This document shows, in pieces, positions 2,180 to 36,462 of a stretch of 64,000 nt of DNA. Position numbers and translations under genes: made by a program. Below the pieces are notes generated by a model. That model was not told the DNA's origin and did no database searches. It saw only the letters and a list, made by a program, of their open reading frames with translations. Positions within the stretch are counted from its first letter, which is position 1; each line of letters begins with the position of its first letter. This stretch comes from a bacterium (lineage in GTDB: Bacteria; CLD3; SB21), in assembly GCA_013360215.1 (NCBI GenBank), contig JABWCP010000008.1, forward strand, positions 1 to 64,000. The letters run 5' to 3'.

Positions 2180-2197
2180 GTGTACGGATTCGTACAC
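2180..2197. promoter_or_regulatory. Palindromic operator, candidate enhancer (UAS)
   Basis: GTGTACGGATTCGTACAC is a perfect 7-bp inverted repeat around a 4-nt centre. It lies roughly 80-90 bp upstream of the candidate sigma-54 -24/-12 element and has the size and distance expected of a site for an NtrC-type enhancer-binding protein. No such regulator gene is present in this window. Confidence 0.5.
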
Positions 2198-2269
2198 CCC
2201 TGCACGCATGCGAACGATTTTCGTGCTTATTTATAAAATGAAAATTATTAAAAACAACTATTTAACCAT

Positions 2270-2285
2270 TGGCACAAGAATTGAC
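2270..2285 (+). promoter_or_regulatory. Candidate sigma-54 (-24/-12) promoter for the efflux locus
   Basis: TGGCAC, five bases, then TTGAC matches the sigma-54 consensus TGGCAC-N5-TTGC in both spacing and bases except for A in place of C in the -12 GC. It would start transcription near 2297, about 50 nt before the adaptor start codon. It is the only good -24/-12 match I found in a non-coding position in front of this long plus-strand locus. Confidence 0.55.
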
Positions 2286-2345
2286 AATAAATAGTATTGA
2301 GTTAGGTTTATCAATTATCAACCGCATTGAAACACGACAGGTAAC

Positions 2346-3599
2346 ATGGACCGGAAAATCGAAAAAAAGACATGGACTCCCAAACGCATTGCGATCATCG
2401 GCGGTGGCGCATTGTTTGTTTTTTTCATCGCGTATCAATTTCTCTTCGGAGACAATTCCACGAAGCTCAATGTCAAATCCGACAAAATCACCATCGCCAA
2501 AGTGACGAAAGGCCCGTTTCAGGAATTCATACCTGTAACCGGCAACGTCATGCCGATCAAAACGATTTACCTCGACGCGATGGAAGGCGGACGTGTGGAC
2601 AAACTTTTCGTCGAAGAAGGCGCGATGCTCAAACAAGGCGAAGAGATTCTCAAACTGACGAACACCAATTTGCAAATGGATGTCATGTTTCGCGAAGCGC
2701 AGTTATTTGAACAGATCAACAACCTGCGCAATACGCGGTTATCTTACGAACAAACCCGTTTGCGCAACAAAAGCGACCTGATCAATCTGGATTATGAAAT
2801 TCAGAAACTCAAACGCACGTACGATATTCAGAAAGGCCTGCAATCGCAGAATCTGACCACGCCGCAAGAATTTGAAACCGCACGGGACGAATACGACTAC
2901 GCCGCCAAGCGGCGCGATCTGCTATTGGAAACCATGCGCCAGGATTCGATCTTGCGCGCCGTGCAGATGCAATCGCTGGAAGCCAGTATCGAGCACATGG
3001 GAACCAACCTCAATACCATCAAAGAGAACCTCGCCAATCTTACCATCCGCGCGCCTATCGCAGGGCAACTCACGTCACGCAACGCGGAACTTGGTGAATC
3101 CAAACGCTCCGGCGATCGCCTCGGGCAAATCGACGTGCTGGACGGCTTTAAAGTGCGTGCCGGCATTGACGAACACTACATCGCACGAATTCAGATCGGG
3201 CAGACCGGCGAATTTGATCTCGCCGGAAAAACGTACAATCTCGTGATCAAAAAAGTTTATCCGGAAGTTCAGAACGGACGTTTTGAAGTGGATATGGAAT
3301 TTCAAGGCGACACACCTAAGGACATTCGTCGCGGCCAAAGTTTGCAGATCCGTCTGGAATTGGGCGATTTGCAGGAGGCCGTACTTGTACCCCGCGGCGG
3401 ATTTTATCAAAAAACCGGCGGGCAGTGGATTTTTGTCGTAGATCCGTCCGGCGACTTTGCCGTAAAACGGAATATTCGCCTCGGGCGCCAAAACCCGCAG
3501 GTTTTTGAAGTCATGGACGGAATCTTCCCCGGCGAACAAGTCATCACATCCAGCTACGACAGTTACGGTGATGTGGACAAACTCATGCTGAATAAGTAG
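2346..3599 (+). CDS. Periplasmic adaptor of an ABC exporter (HlyD/MacA-like)
   Basis: A 417-residue membrane fusion protein. It has one N-terminal TM helix (about 13-33), a first half lipoyl-like domain (about 58-107, GGRVDKLFVEEGAMLKQGEE), a coiled-coil hairpin (about 110-220, heptad-rich with LRNTRLSYEQTRLRNKSDL), the second lipoyl half (IRAPIAGQLTSRNAELGE, about 230-247), a beta-barrel and a membrane-proximal domain. Family members bridge an inner-membrane MacB-type permease to an outer-membrane channel. No outer-membrane (TolC-like) gene is visible nearby. It is the first gene after the sigma-54-like promoter and the only adaptor for the twelve permeases that follow. Confidence 0.9.
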   Translation: MDRKIEKKTWTPKRIAIIGGGALFVFFIAYQFLFGDNSTKLNVKSDKITIAKVTKGPFQEFIPVTGNVMPIKTIYLDAMEGGRVDKLFVEEGAMLKQGEEILKLTNTNLQMDVMFREAQLFEQINNLRNTRLSYEQTRLRNKSDLINLDYEIQKLKRTYDIQKGLQSQNLTTPQEFETARDEYDYAAKRRDLLLETMRQDSILRAVQMQSLEASIEHMGTNLNTIKENLANLTIRAPIAGQLTSRNAELGESKRSGDRLGQIDVLDGFKVRAGIDEHYIARIQIGQTGEFDLAGKTYNLVIKKVYPEVQNGRFEVDMEFQGDTPKDIRRGQSLQIRLELGDLQEAVLVPRGGFYQKTGGQWIFVVDPSGDFAVKRNIRLGRQNPQVFEVMDGIFPGEQVITSSYDSYGDVDKLMLNK

Positions 3600-3654
3600 C
3601 AGACGGTAGACGGCAGACGGGAAACGGGACACGGGAAACGGCAGACGGAAAGCG
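3600..3654. repeat. 7-bp-periodic repeat tract (short array)
   Basis: About seven heptamers of the type AGACGGC/AAACGGG run directly from the stop codon of the adaptor gene. The same heptamer family forms the larger tract at 4788-4919, so the two tracts bracket the S23 gene and ATPase 1. Confidence 0.85.
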
Positions 3655-3677: not shown

Positions 3678-4070
3678 ATGAATGAGAACGGTATGCTGAA
3701 TTTGGGTCATAAAAATTTAGATGTATGGAAACTGAGTATCGAATTGGTAACTAAAATTTACGCCATAACAGAAAATTTTCCAAAAACAGAGATGTATGGT
3801 ATCACCAATCAACTTCGGCGAGCGGCGGTGTCGGTTTCATCAAATATCGCCGAAGGCGCTGCACGACGATCTCAACTCGAACGACGTCGCTACTATGAGA
3901 TTGCGCGTTCTTCTTTAGTAGAAATTGATACGCAATTAGAAATTGCGTTACGCCTGAAGTTTTGCATCAGAGAAAATTTGCATTCTATCTCTGATCTACT
4001 AAACCATGTATTTGCCAGTCTTTCTAAATTAGTAAAAAGCACTATCCATAAAACATTAACGAAAAATTAA
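3678..4070 (+). CDS. Four-helix-bundle protein (S23, 23S rRNA intervening-sequence family)
   Basis: A 130-residue protein with the hallmarks of the four-helix-bundle/S23 family (TIGR02436): NLDVWKLSIELV near the start, FPKTEMYGITNQLRRAAVSV (about 36-55) and the SSNIAEGAARRS turn, then YEIARSSLVEIDTQLEIA. Family members were first found inside intervening sequences of 23S rRNA genes, but many, like this one, stand alone. Function is unknown; a nucleic-acid-related role is often supposed. AGGAGA (about 3665-3670) precedes the start. It interrupts the adaptor-ATPase gene pair and has 7-bp repeats on its left, which suggests it arrived as a separate insertion. Confidence 0.88.
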   Translation: MNENGMLNLGHKNLDVWKLSIELVTKIYAITENFPKTEMYGITNQLRRAAVSVSSNIAEGAARRSQLERRRYYEIARSSLVEIDTQLEIALRLKFCIRENLHSISDLLNHVFASLSKLVKSTIHKTLTKN

Positions 4071-4097: not shown

Positions 4098-4787
4098 ATG
4101 ATCAAAGCCAAGAATCTAAACAAGATGTACACCACGGACGAAGTGGAAACAACCGCACTGAATAACGTCAACTTTGAAATCAACGACAGCGAGTTCGTCG
4201 CAATCATGGGACCATCCGGTTGCGGTAAATCCACGCTGCTCAATATCATCGGCTTACTCGACAATCCGACCAGCGGTGAATATCATTTTGTCGGGCATGA
4301 GGTATCACGCTACTCCGAGCGCCAACGTTCCAATCTGCGCAAAGCCAATATCGGTTTTGTGTTTCAGAGTTTTAACCTCATCGACGAACTGACGGTGTAT
4401 GAAAATGTCGAGTTGCCGCTTTTGTATCTCGGTATGACGGCATCGGATCGTAAAAAACGCGTCGAAGAAACCCTGGAACATATGCAAATCATGCACCGCC
4501 GCAATCACTTTCCGCAACAACTTTCCGGCGGTCAGCAGCAGCGTGTGGCCGTGTCGCGCGCCGTCGTCGCCAAACCCAAACTGATCCTCGCCGACGAACC
4601 TACGGGTAACCTTGATTCCGCGCACGGTGAAGAAGTGATGCGCCTGCTGACCGACCTCAACAAAGCCGGCACCACCATCATCATGGTAACGCACTCCCCG
4701 TCGCATGCCGAATATGCGCACCGCATCATTCACCTCTTCGACGGTCACATCGTGACGGAGAACATGAAAGAAGCGGCTAAGATATAA
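4098..4787 (+). CDS. ABC transporter ATPase 1 (LolD/MacB-type)
   Basis: A 229-residue nucleotide-binding subunit. Walker A is GPSGCGKST (about residues 38-46), the Q-loop lies in IGFVFQSFNLIDELTVYENV, the signature is LSGGQQQRVAVSRA (about 139-152), Walker B is LILADEPTGNLDS, and the H-loop is VTHSP. All catalytic elements are intact. The insertion pattern and sequence place it with LolD/MacB/FtsE-type ATPases that drive FtsX-fold permeases. AGGAG (about 4086-4090) precedes the start codon. It probably powers several of the following permeases, which lack their own NBD domains. Confidence 0.93.
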   Translation: MIKAKNLNKMYTTDEVETTALNNVNFEINDSEFVAIMGPSGCGKSTLLNIIGLLDNPTSGEYHFVGHEVSRYSERQRSNLRKANIGFVFQSFNLIDELTVYENVELPLLYLGMTASDRKKRVEETLEHMQIMHRRNHFPQQLSGGQQQRVAVSRAVVAKPKLILADEPTGNLDSAHGEEVMRLLTDLNKAGTTIIMVTHSPSHAEYAHRIIHLFDGHIVTENMKEAAKI

Positions 4788-4919
4788 CAGATGGCAAATG
4801 GCAAATGGCAGACGGGAAACGGCAAATGGCAAACGGCAAACGGCAGACGGGAAACGGCAAATGGCAAATGGCAGACGGGAAACGGCAAATGGCAAACGGC
4901 AGACGGGAAACGGGAAACA
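4788..4919. repeat. 7-bp-periodic repeat tract (about 18 heptamers)
   Basis: The tract is built of GGCAAAT, GGCAAAC, GGCAGAC and GGGAAAC units in mixed order. Because 7 is not a multiple of 3, the antisense translation gives a 7-residue periodic pseudo-protein (FAVSRLP/FAICRFP). It separates ATPase 1 from permease 1 without an obvious terminator and resembles the heptameric STRR sequences known from filamentous cyanobacteria. Confidence 0.9.
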
Positions 4920-4953
4920 GTGAAGAAAGAAGTAAAAACATAAGGCGGGGACT

Positions 4954-17083: not shown

Positions 17084-17118
17084 CTAAGTTTTTTAGATAT
17101 AAAACAATGGGATGCTTC

Positions 17119-19497
17119 ATGTTCAAAGTTTACCTGAAAATTATTTTACGAAACTTTCTGAAAGAACGTTCTTTCGTCTGGATCAACCTGATCGGATTAT
17201 CGGTCGGACTACTCTGTTGTTTTACGATCTTACTCTACGCGCGTAAGGAATTGGCTTACGAAAATTTTCACGTTAACAAGGAACACATTTACCGTGTATT
17301 GCCGCGGATCCAAGGCGGCGCCAACGATTATGAACAAATTTGGACACCGGCATGGCTTGCCCCGTCCGCTAAAAATAAAATTCCCGAGATTCGCCTCGCT
17401 TCGCGATACATCCATTTGGGATCGGAACAACTGATCACGCATGAAAACCAACGTATGCTTACGGACGGATTAGCTTTGGCCGATCCGGATTTTTTACACA
17501 TGTTCTCTTTTACGGAACCGTTCACGTCCGGCATGAATCCGCTCAGCGATCCTTCGGCACTGATTGTCTCCCGTTCCGCTGCGTATCGTATGTTTGGAGA
17601 TCAATCTCCGATCGGGAAAACCATAACACTCAATGGTTCCCACGTCTTTACGATCAAAGCCGTATTTACGGATGTACCGGTCGAATCCCATCTACAATTT
17701 GAAATGCTGGGTCATTTTCAGCGCATTCGCGAAATCTGGGGAATGGATACGACACCGGAAGAAAATACCAGTTGGAATTTTGCAACCTACCTGATGACAA
17801 CGCCCCAAGCCGATATCAGCGCGGTACAGTCTAAAGTGCTCAATATTTTCGAAGAACGTGCTCCGCGGAAAAATCAGCGCACGATCCGACTACAGTCTCT
17901 CAACGATATTCATTTCACGCAAGGTATCCGCCGTGATAACGCCGACGGAAATTGGACTTCACTGATCGCGCTTTGCAGCGTCGCCGTATTGGTCGTACTC
18001 ATCGCATGTTTCAATTTTACCAATCTGATGACAGCCAAAGCGATGCGACGCGCCAAAGAAATCGCCGTGCGAAAAATTTCCGGCGCAAGCCGGTGGCTCA
18101 TAGCTCTGCAGTTTATCAGCGAAGCACTTATGCTGTCGGTTTTTGCTACCGTCTTGGCTATCGGGATGCTGGAAGGCTTACTTCCTCTTTTACGTCATTA
18201 TCTCGACATATCTATTCCTTTTACCTATACCGAACACGGTCCCTGGTTAGGCATTATGATCGGCGTCGGAGTATTGACCGGGCTCATCGCCGGTTTTTAC
18301 CCCGCATGGGTTTTATCATCCTTTGAACCCGCGCGCACCATCAAAGGCGTGACCAAACTTCCGGTGGCCAATAAACTCCGCAAAGGATTGGTTTTATCCC
18401 AATTCACCGTTTCGATCATTCTTGCATCGTGCACGGTGATTGTTTGGCAACAAATCAACCACATGAAAGAATTTAACCTCGGCTTTCAAAAAGAACAGAT
18501 TATCGTGACCTCCGCCCCGGGTTCATTGCGTGAAAAACCTGAAGCCGTACGTCAACAGCTCACCAACGACGGATCAATCATATCCGTAACATTTGCCAAC
18601 TCCGTACCCGGCAATGCTTTTTCGCATGGTCCGTATGAAATACTGGGCGGAACGGAAAACGGACGCATTTCTATCAATACCATATATGCGGATGCGGAAT
18701 ATTTGAAGACACTTAACATAGCGTTATCCGAAGGGCGTTACTTTTATCCGGAACATGCGGCAGAGAACACGGATTATTATGTGGTCAACGAAGCTTTTAT
18801 GAAAGCTTACGGAAAATCGGATTTTCAAACGATGCGCTTGCGTTCATTGGACGGAAATCATGATAAACCGGGATCAATCGTCGGCGTTGTCAAAGACTTT
18901 CATTATGCGTCACTTAAAAGCACCATCGCACCATTGGTCCTGCGCTACGCGCCGGCAGAATCCTGGCGCATGATTATTCGTGTCGCACCGCAACAAACAA
19001 AACAGGCTATCACAAAACTTTCGTCCGTGTGGCAAACTATGGCGCCGGAAATTCCGATGACGTACCGCTTTCTTGACGAAGTGTTTGACAAACAATACAA
19101 ACAGGAAGATCGCCTGCATCACCTGATGATTGGCTTTTCGGCACTGGCCATTCTTATTGCAGGGCTTGGCCTCTATAGCATGGTGGCGTATTACAATGAG
19201 CAGCGTACCAAAGAAATCGGAATTCGCAAAGTTTTGGGCGCCACGATCACGGATGTATTGTATCTGATGTCGCGCGATTATGTCGGAATGGTCGTACTGG
19301 CAAACATCATTTCATTCCCTCTGATTTATTTTATGATGAATCGCTGGCTGGACGATTTTGCGTATCGCGTTGCCGTTCGATGGGAAATCATGGCTATTAC
19401 AGGAATATTGACATTGGGACTGACACTCATCATGGTGGGAATACAATCATGGCGCACGGCTTCCGCCAATCCGATCCATGCACTCAAATACGAATAA
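17119..19497 (+). CDS. ABC permease 6
   Basis: Two starts are possible: ATG at 17107 (no Shine-Dalgarno) and ATG at 17119 (MFKVYLKIILRNF, with GGGATG just upstream). The second matches the paralogues and is used (792 residues). Post-TM1 motif YENFHVNKEHIYRV. The first coupling motif is the divergent AKEIAVRKISGAS, the second is normal (TKEIGIRKVLGAT). VGVVKDFHYASLKS marks the second periplasmic domain and the end is NPIHALKYE. It is followed directly by the SUMF1-like lipoprotein gene. Confidence 0.9.
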   Translation: MFKVYLKIILRNFLKERSFVWINLIGLSVGLLCCFTILLYARKELAYENFHVNKEHIYRVLPRIQGGANDYEQIWTPAWLAPSAKNKIPEIRLASRYIHLGSEQLITHENQRMLTDGLALADPDFLHMFSFTEPFTSGMNPLSDPSALIVSRSAAYRMFGDQSPIGKTITLNGSHVFTIKAVFTDVPVESHLQFEMLGHFQRIREIWGMDTTPEENTSWNFATYLMTTPQADISAVQSKVLNIFEERAPRKNQRTIRLQSLNDIHFTQGIRRDNADGNWTSLIALCSVAVLVVLIACFNFTNLMTAKAMRRAKEIAVRKISGASRWLIALQFISEALMLSVFATVLAIGMLEGLLPLLRHYLDISIPFTYTEHGPWLGIMIGVGVLTGLIAGFYPAWVLSSFEPARTIKGVTKLPVANKLRKGLVLSQFTVSIILASCTVIVWQQINHMKEFNLGFQKEQIIVTSAPGSLREKPEAVRQQLTNDGSIISVTFANSVPGNAFSHGPYEILGGTENGRISINTIYADAEYLKTLNIALSEGRYFYPEHAAENTDYYVVNEAFMKAYGKSDFQTMRLRSLDGNHDKPGSIVGVVKDFHYASLKSTIAPLVLRYAPAESWRMIIRVAPQQTKQAITKLSSVWQTMAPEIPMTYRFLDEVFDKQYKQEDRLHHLMIGFSALAILIAGLGLYSMVAYYNEQRTKEIGIRKVLGATITDVLYLMSRDYVGMVVLANIISFPLIYFMMNRWLDDFAYRVAVRWEIMAITGILTLGLTLIMVGIQSWRTASANPIHALKYE

Positions 19498-19501
19498 AAG
19501 T

Positions 19502-20371
19502 ATGTTAATCACAAAAGACTCAATCATCATAGCTGATTTGAGAACACTTATTATTCTAATGATATCTTTGTATTTAACAGCTTGCTCTGCCATGCATCGT
19601 AAAAATCCTTCCGGATATATTGCCGAAACTTCTTTTTCTGTATGGTGGCAGGATTCGACTACCGGTATGAAATTTCGCCGTATCGAAGCGGGAAAATATA
19701 TGGCCGGTTTAGCTGAAAACGATACGGTCGCCCCCTTGCACGAGATACATATTACAAAACCGTTTTGGATGAGCGCGTATGAAGTAACACAACGCCAATG
19801 GTATATGATCATGCATGAGAATCCCAGTCAGTATTCTCATGATTGTTCAGATTGCCCTGTTGAAAACGTCAGCTGGTTTGATGTGAAAAGATTCATTGAA
19901 CATCTGAACAGCAAAACCGGTCGTCGTTACCGATTGCCCAGTGAGGCCGAATGGGAATATGCATGCCGTGCAGGTACGTCAACACCCTTCGCCACGGGAC
20001 ATACATTGAGTACGGATCAGGCCAATTACGATGGTAACTGGCCTTACGGCAAGTCCTCAAAAGGTATTTTCCGATCTCGCCCTTTGCCGGTAGGAAGTTT
20101 TGCTCCCAACACATGGGGCCTCTATGACATGCATGGTAACGTTTTAGAGTGGTGCGAAGATGACTATTGCCGATATAATCAGGAAACGGAGTATGATCCT
20201 GTACGGCGATGTGCCGGCGATCGAAAAATCATTCGCGGCGGAAGTTGGCACTTCGGAGGTGATCTGGCGCGTAGCGGCCGTCGCTATACTCATGAACCGC
20301 ATGATCGTGGACCAAGCTTAGGCTTTCGTCTTGTAATGGAAGATGTAAATACAAAAGAAAATAACCGTTAA
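19502..20371 (+). CDS. SUMF1/FGE-fold lipoprotein lacking the catalytic cysteines
   Basis: I use the ATG at 19502 because it gives a clean lipoprotein signal (LIILMISLYLTAC, lipobox LTAC); the longer frame from 19478 would overlap permease 6. The mature part (289 residues in all) is an FGE-sulfatase domain: EVTQRQWYMIMHENPSQY, CPVENVSWFDVKRFI, RLPSEAEWEYACRAGT, GLYDMHGNVLEWCED and IRGGSWHF, ending GFRLV. In true formylglycine-generating enzymes two cysteines follow RGGS; here that stretch (GGDLARSGRRYTHEP) has none, so sulfatase activation is unlikely. A surface-anchored binding or structural role is more plausible. It splits the permease array after the sixth copy. Confidence 0.85.
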   Translation: MLITKDSIIIADLRTLIILMISLYLTACSAMHRKNPSGYIAETSFSVWWQDSTTGMKFRRIEAGKYMAGLAENDTVAPLHEIHITKPFWMSAYEVTQRQWYMIMHENPSQYSHDCSDCPVENVSWFDVKRFIEHLNSKTGRRYRLPSEAEWEYACRAGTSTPFATGHTLSTDQANYDGNWPYGKSSKGIFRSRPLPVGSFAPNTWGLYDMHGNVLEWCEDDYCRYNQETEYDPVRRCAGDRKIIRGGSWHFGGDLARSGRRYTHEPHDRGPSLGFRLVMEDVNTKENNR

Positions 20372-35799: not shown

Positions 35800-36462
35800 A
35801 TGATCACGCTGAAAAACATCGAAAAGTATTACGAAAACAAAAGCATCAAAAATTATGTCCTCAGGGATATCAACCTGACCATTCAGCCCGGCGAATTTGT
35901 TTCCATTATGGGGCCGAGCGGTTCCGGCAAATCCACCCTGCTGCATATCCTCGGTATGCTGGACGAACCGACCAAAGGCGAGTATCTTTTTTTGGATCAG
36001 GAAGTGCACCGCATATCCGAACGCCAAAAAACCGAATTGCATAAAAATCACATCGGATTTGTTTTTCAGAGTTACCATCTTATCGACGAACTGACCGTCT
36101 ATGAAAACATCGAAACACCGCTGCTGTACAAAAAAACGAGCGGCTCGGAACGCAAAGCTTTGGTCGCGGATATTTTGGATCGTTTTAATATCGTCGGTAA
36201 AAAGGATCTATTCCCCAGCCAGCTATCCGGCGGTCAACAACAACTTGTCGGCATTGCCCGTGCGGTGATCACCGCACCGAAAGTCATCCTCGCCGACGAA
36301 CCTACGGGCAATCTCAATTCCGCCCAGGGCGAAGAGATCATGCAACTTTTCAAAAAACTCAATCAGGAAGGCACGACGATCATTCAGGTCACCCACTCTG
36401 AAAAAAATGCGGCGTACGGAAATCGTATCATCAATCTTTTAGACGGATTCATTCAGAAATAA
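35800..36462 (+). CDS. ABC transporter ATPase 2 (LolD/MacB-type)
   Basis: 220 residues with an intact Walker A (GPSGSGKST, about 38-46), Q-loop region IGFVFQSYHLIDELTVYENI, Walker B (VILADEPTGNLNS) and H-loop (VTHSE). The signature reads LSGGQQQLVGIARA, with L in place of the usual R after the QQQ; this R is common but not catalytic. It parallels ATPase 1 at the other end of the array and has no permease of its own downstream, so it probably drives members of the upstream array. Confidence 0.92.
   Translation: MITLKNIEKYYENKSIKNYVLRDINLTIQPGEFVSIMGPSGSGKSTLLHILGMLDEPTKGEYLFLDQEVHRISERQKTELHKNHIGFVFQSYHLIDELTVYENIETPLLYKKTSGSERKALVADILDRFNIVGKKDLFPSQLSGGQQQLVGIARAVITAPKVILADEPTGNLNSAQGEEIMQLFKKLNQEGTTIIQVTHSEKNAAYGNRIINLLDGFIQK

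Follow-up and report, generated by a model that had tools for sequence, protein, structure and literature searches.

The region 2180-2300 of the window (the whole stretch of 64,000 nt that was analysed, with which contig C8 begins on its left) is read, with a probability of about 0.9, as a putative sigma-54 promoter with an upstream enhancer, which would serve the adaptor-ATPase-permease array that follows and would be run by an adjoining two-component pair. The elements and genes concerned are the following:

1-320, no strand assigned: tandem repeat of about 180 bp at the contig start, containing a 36-mer confined to this end and to the right end of contig C10
526-921, reverse strand: CoA-binding-domain gene, a syntenic marker
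2180-2197: palindrome GTGTACGGATTCGTACAC, 149-166 nt 5′ of the adaptor ATG (2346)
2181-2196, no strand assigned: dyad 1, TGTACG-GATT-CGTACA, predicted enhancer site of the NtrC-type regulator
2203-2218, no strand assigned: dyad 2, TGCACG-CATG-CGAACG, degenerate, predicted second enhancer site
2270-2285, forward strand: −24/−12 element TGGCACAAGAATTGAC (TGGCAC-AAGAA-TTGAC), 61-76 nt 5′ of the adaptor ATG (2346)
2271-2272, 2283 and 2284, forward strand: −24 GG, −13 G and −12 base, the last being A (consensus C)
2296, forward strand: predicted transcription start, derived from the −12 base at 2284 by sigma-54 numbering
2346-3599, forward strand: periplasmic adaptor (HlyD_3/HlyD_D23), 417 aa, first gene of the array
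4098-4787, forward strand: ABC ATPase, MacB/LolD/DarD-like, 229 aa
4954-34991, forward strand: twelve ORFs of 784-805 aa, MacB_PCD/FtsX (ADOP-like) permeases
L150:4756-6129, right end of contig C10: NtrC-type regulator, 457 aa, with PF00072, PF00158 and PF02954 all over the cut-off
L150:3399-4766, right end of contig C10: kinase, 455 aa

Both strings named in an earlier reading made from the letters alone (hereafter the sequence-only reading), TGGCAC-N5-TTGAC at 2270-2285 and the perfect palindrome at 2180-2197, are present as described. Of the architecture built on them, the two elements stood, while the degenerate dyad at 2203-2218 had been missed and the consensus C at −12 is absent. Dyad 1 is the palindrome without its outermost pair, with TGTNCG-N4-CGNACA as the conserved core (2181-2196) and its centre at about −108 relative to the predicted start. 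Dyad 2 starts 22 bp past the start of dyad 1, two helical turns downstream, the tandem dyads thus lying approximately 85 and 108 bp 5′ of the predicted start. In the promoter element, the GG at −25/−24 (2271-2272) and the G at −13 (2283) were found with the standard sigma-54 spacing, while position 2284 carries A in place of the consensus C. A C at −12 is a consensus preference of sigma-54 promoters, and exceptions are known. Standard sigma-54 numbering puts the start at about 2296, in agreement with the position near 2297 that had been expected earlier. Farther upstream (approximately 1630-1980), a non-coding stretch of about 165 bp is repeated in tandem with few differences.

The motif TGGCAC-N5-TTGAC, with at most one mismatch, matched once in the 64-kb window versus 0.95 expected. 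The sigma-54 consensus TGGCAC-N5-TTGCW, from which the element at 2270-2285 differs in two positions (the −12 C and the next base), matched 36 times with at most two mismatches, versus 28.3 expected from shuffled sequence. A total of 13 perfect palindromes with 7-bp arms and a 4-bp spacer were counted in the same window. Neither element alone therefore exceeds chance in 64 kb, and it is conservation that decides: the elements are judged real because four further genomes show the same arrangement, with the same 90-bp spacing, ahead of the orthologous gene.

Clear orthologs of the adaptor were found in four of the six other family genomes (G002, G003, G004 and G006; 75-83% identity). In all four, TGTNCG-N4-CGNACA is followed exactly 90 bp on (measured from the dyad to the GG) by GGCAY-N5-TTG, before the orthologous adaptor gene. 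In the five-genome alignment, all 10 core positions of dyad 1 and all seven positions of GGCA and TTG were identical, versus 19 of the 68 spacer positions and 10 of the 59 leader positions; only four of 10 positions were identical in dyad 2, and the base matching 2284 was A in three genomes and T in two. Across the seven family genomes, exact dyads occurred at 21 distinct places, of which 17 were inspected for a downstream element. Six of these, all at the exporter locus, were followed by a sigma-54-like element, at 90 bp in five cases and 89 bp in one. None of the 11 inspected dyads among the 15 outside the locus had such an element after it, 10 of the 11 lying inside open frames of at least 90 codons. 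Moreover, a scan of the seven genomes for the composite pattern (dyad plus element) gave no match beyond those at the locus. In G001, the dyad falls within the coding frame of a permease, so that this genome provides no support for the promoter, and no dyad was seen in the inspected stretch of its regulator contig.

Within the genome itself, the expectation of the sequence-only reading that the same palindrome would precede other MacB-type operons was not borne out: of five exact dyads, only the one at this locus was followed by a sigma-54-like element. The palindrome as the mark of a regulon was likewise rejected, as it appeared with at most two mismatches at 15 places versus 10 for the reversed pattern and defines no regulon by itself. 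The canonical TGGCAC-N5-TTGCW matched 35 and 24 times versus 57 and 73 for the control, and was discarded as uninformative. The same holds for the intergenic share of the sigma-54-like sites of the genome (10 of 59; three of 16 among those without the −12 C and seven of 43 among the others).

The presence of rpoN, on which the proposal had been made to depend, was confirmed: the genome has a single, intact copy of 556 aa, with the Sigma54_DBD domain (E = 1.1e−59) and the RpoN box ARRTITKYRE, together with 11 strong sigma-54 activators. One of these 11, an NtrC-type regulator, is encoded beside a kinase, 0.6 kb from the right end of contig C10, and its Response_reg, Sigma54_activat and HTH_8 domains give it the receiver-AAA-Fis organization of group I bacterial enhancer-binding proteins (bEBPs). 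The 36 bases that end C10 also begin C8; with at most three mismatches, this 36-mer was found at only four places in the entire assembly, two at the end of C10 and two at the start of C8. Since the two ends share a unique repeat and relatives carry the pair beside the adaptor, the regulator probably adjoins the window on its left, the C10-C8 join being drawn from the repeat. The sequence-only reading had placed the cognate regulator outside the window and suggested a search to its left, and the regulator and kinase at the adjoining contig end agree with this.

In G003 and G006, one or two genes separate the adaptor from the regulator-kinase pair to its left, the CoA-binding-domain gene being found in this interval also in G003. 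In G002 and G004, the pair is again to the left, with a large hybrid kinase gene among the intervening genes (L154:14275-17376 in G002, with HAMP, HisKA, receiver and Hpt domains; L155:15301-18486 in G004). Furthermore, G005 (95% complete) has no ortholog of the adaptor, the regulator or the kinase. The array and the pair are thus jointly absent there, which, as read from the assembly, is a natural deletion. On its contig 37 (L158:6275-6700), a fossil locus consists of the enhancer dyad, the promoter (89 bp) and a degraded adaptor start. In G001 (85% complete, 660 contigs), regulator and kinase are present and no adaptor ortholog was found, a combination for which fragmentation bars either reading.

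The architecture was then followed across phyla in the best 80 of 405 loci retrieved with the receiver domain of the regulator as query, hence no random sample. These came from Bacteroidota, Acidobacteriota, Zixibacteria, Latescibacterota, Aminicenantes, KSB1, Cloacimonadota and some Proteobacteria. A total of 40 exact dyads were found in 34 of the 80 loci (1.26 Mb), while of the 120 permuted forms scored, a number that counts the real dyad too, the runner-up gave 8 matches and the median was 1. When spacers of 0-12 were tested, enrichment appeared at 4 alone (40 versus 0 to 3 matches). A common layout has permeases, ATPase and adaptor on one side, then the dyad, and then the regulator and kinase in divergent orientation. 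With genes taken as longest-ORF calls and classes labelled by profiles made from this same family, a dyad with at most one mismatch lay upstream of 41 of 44 adaptor genes versus 11 of 623 other genes, and a dyad plus a strict sigma-54 element upstream of 17 of 44 versus 0 of 623 (both 44 and 623 leaving out genes with <300 nt of sequence). A looser element, GG[CA]AY-N6-TG, with −12 free, followed the dyad in 32 of the 41 dyad-bearing adaptor upstream regions versus 0 of 684 other genes, a count that keeps the genes with <300 nt, and the reversed element gave 0. In these homologous promoters, the dyad lies 79-116 bp upstream of the element, and many carry another, degenerate dyad at +20 to +22. 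On the negative side, no recognisable sigma-54 element was seen at 70-125 bp in nine of the 41 dyad-bearing regions, and two of the 44 adaptor genes had no dyad within two mismatches. Some regulators of the family adjoin genes other than ABC arrays. In several Bacteroidales (L167, L171, L177, L183 and L199), an exact dyad, followed after 93-104 bp by a TGGCATA-N4-TTG-type element, was observed beside the array, and in the first four of these it points at a small 98-aa gene, likely a second target.

When the composite pattern was searched over 386 genomes, 15 matched, six of the seven family genomes among them, versus four for the reversed control. Of the nine matches outside the family, G062 has an adaptor alongside, the match in G007 is not near any array gene, and in G090 there are only distant relatives of the pair, with permease fragments a few kilobases off; several of the remaining six are probably due to chance. 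In the phylum of G062, two of six genomes matched, with no control match.

The base at −12 was C in six of 32 homologous promoters, A in 12, G in eight and T in six; C at −12 therefore does not define this subgroup. In a loose scan of 16.6 kb of intergenic sequence around other activators and transporters of the genome itself, seven matches were obtained. The three of them that read TGGCAC-N5-TTG all had no C at −12, so that its absence may be a trait of the lineage. The sigma-54 contact loop was GAFTDA or GSFTDA in 77 of 81 regulators of the family, two of the 81 being unreadable. Among the strong activators of the genome (10 of 11 readable), nine had GAFTGA and the tenth, the candidate regulator of this locus, had GAFTDA, a tolerated variant. 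GAFTDA is reported, in the part of the source consulted, as a natural loop variant that keeps activity (PMC4641369), and the matching change in NorR, G266D, is described in the available part of another as releasing the protein from the repression that its sensor domain exerts (PMC2941729). Coevolution of the GAFTDA loop with the missing −12 C was considered and is disfavoured, as two members with GAFTGA also have TTGA (small numbers). The link is further weakened by members with a −12 C that include GAFTDA ones and by the three other sites of the genome without C.

Control by an enhancer-binding protein through sigma-54, as the sequence-only reading had it, is thus supported by rpoN, the conserved footprint, the linked regulator, the joint absence in G005 and the recurrence across phyla. 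Against it stands, as a very unlikely account, a housekeeping promoter of the sigma-70 type driving the array, with TTGACA at 2281 or TTGGCA at 2269 as the −35 and an accidental −24/−12 match. TTGGCA-N17-TAGTAT at 2269-2297 does score 9 of 12, although eight such matches occur in the region versus 5.5 expected. FCB-type bacteria often use other housekeeping promoters, and the lack of a perfect sigma-70 match is therefore weak evidence. The −10-like part falls in the poorly kept leader (10 of 59 positions), in contrast to the seven of seven positions kept in GGCA and TTG, and a sigma-70 promoter accounts for neither the 90-bp register of the dyad nor the linked NtrC-type regulator.

The dyad could also be the operator of a repressor or of an activator that does not work through sigma-54, the sigma-54-like element being incidental. 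Palindromes with short spacers are common operators, and the nine of 41 dyad-bearing upstream regions without an element would fit such a role. However, in several phyla the dyad goes together with a regulator that has a Sigma54_activat domain, the dyad's distance of 79-116 bp upstream of the element is typical of enhancers and not of a repressor, and dyad and element together were found in none of the 684 other genes; we consider the operator highly improbable. As for pure chance, with an AT-rich intergenic region happening to hold both a palindrome and a promoter-like string, each element taken singly does occur at chance level in 64 kb, while the conservation at fixed spacing in five genomes and the cross-phylum enrichment lead us to regard this explanation as refuted.

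The exporter array itself contains a run of twelve large MacB/FtsX-type permeases, preceded by one ATPase, and there is another ATPase at 35800-36462. MacB_PCD was over the cut-off in 11 of the 12 permease ORFs, the one at 17107-19497 being sub-threshold. A gene with an FGE-sulfatase domain (19478-20371) interrupts the permeases, and a gene for a 23S rRNA-intervening-sequence (four-helix) protein (3678-4070) lies between adaptor and ATPase, an interval in which no gene was called at the G002 locus (L154). Low-complexity intergenic repeats of the type ggcaaatggcagacgggaaacgg flank array genes (3600-3650 and 4788-4920). The darobactin exporter DarBCD is nearest for the adaptor (DarC) and the ATPase (DarD), with NCBIfam scores below the curated cut-offs (DarC 203.5 versus 450 bits, DarD 282.5 versus 375, DarB 103 and 135 versus 700). 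For the permeases, ADOP (TIGR03434) is the nearest named family, the two of the twelve that were scanned reaching 269.9 and 351.1 bits versus a cut-off of 622.3.

The predicted promoter resembles those activated by NtrC-type regulators in its −24 GG, −13 G and standard spacing. Like NtrC-glnA, ZraR, AtoC and PrsR/PEP_resp_reg, the system combines a receiver-AAA-Fis regulator with a tandem dyad enhancer about 85-110 bp upstream. Unlike these known systems, its predicted enhancer is TGTNCG-N4-CGNACA, the −12 C is mostly absent and the loop is GAFTDA/GSFTDA. Its regulator also differs from the named NtrC-type ones: the best NCBIfam equivalog, PEP_resp_reg, scored 413 bits, below its cut-off of 502.6, and the regulator is therefore none of them. 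No description of this regulator family, enhancer motif or architecture was found in the open-licence papers searched, and a search by motif letters gave none on the subject among the matches listed. A promoter scan has found sigma-54 promoters enriched before COG0577 FtsX-like permeases, in what the consulted part of the paper calls the first such link, the enrichment being given at class level for Bacteroidia, Opitutia and gammaproteobacteria (PMC12316311, 2025). The same permease class is thus tied to sigma-54, while that part of the paper names no regulator, enhancer motif or locus architecture. Furthermore, the sigma-54 regulon of Flavobacterium psychrophilum includes envelope-stress genes, according to the part of the source available (PMC9723704).

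As for the signal, the hydrophobic segments of the kinase are confined to residues 2-56 in this genome, and in 63 of 71 homologs all of them fall within a 60-residue span (hydropathy alone in both cases). Most of these kinases would therefore leave no space for a sensor domain in the periplasm, and the kinase may respond to the transporter or directly to the membrane, as in Bce-type systems. Those modules, known from Firmicutes, place an FtsX-family exporter beside a kinase that lacks a periplasmic sensor domain. The present locus shares with them a kinase that, by hydropathy, has no extracytoplasmic sensor domain and adjoins an FtsX-type exporter, and differs from them in its output, an NtrC-type sigma-54 activator instead of an OmpR-type regulator. 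In the proposed sequence of events, the kinase encoded directly to the left (at the end of C10) would sense a membrane or antimicrobial signal, which is the most speculative step; the activating input may be membrane-active peptides or similar compounds, or the working transporter. The phosphorylated regulator would then bind the tandem dyads at 2181-2196 and 2203-2218 and loop over the AT-rich spacer, and its AAA+ ring would open the sigma-54 polymerase waiting at 2270-2285. Transcription would begin near 2296 and probably run into the exporter array.

Exporter arrays of the MacB/ADOP type are frequent in Bacteroidota, in Acidobacteriota and in many phyla without cultured members, and their signals and regulators are, to our knowledge, mostly unknown. 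The locus offers a concrete candidate regulator, kinase, enhancer motif and promoter for such arrays, and the cultured carriers of the regulator (Ekhidna, Roseivirga, Pontibacter, Dyadobacter, Chitinophaga and Kordiimonas) make the circuit testable. Sigma-54 scans that require a C at −12 will miss promoters of this kind. As a tentative and rather doubtful extension, the locus could be one case of a widespread, so far undescribed sigma-54 detoxification module in which the kinase, lacking a periplasmic sensor domain, reads the activity of the ADOP/MacB-type exporter, and the GAFTDA activator, acting with the tandem TGTNCG-N4-CGNACA sites, raises the exporter from a promoter without the −12 C. 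If true, flux sensing of the Bce kind would have arisen here independently, on the basis of sigma-54.
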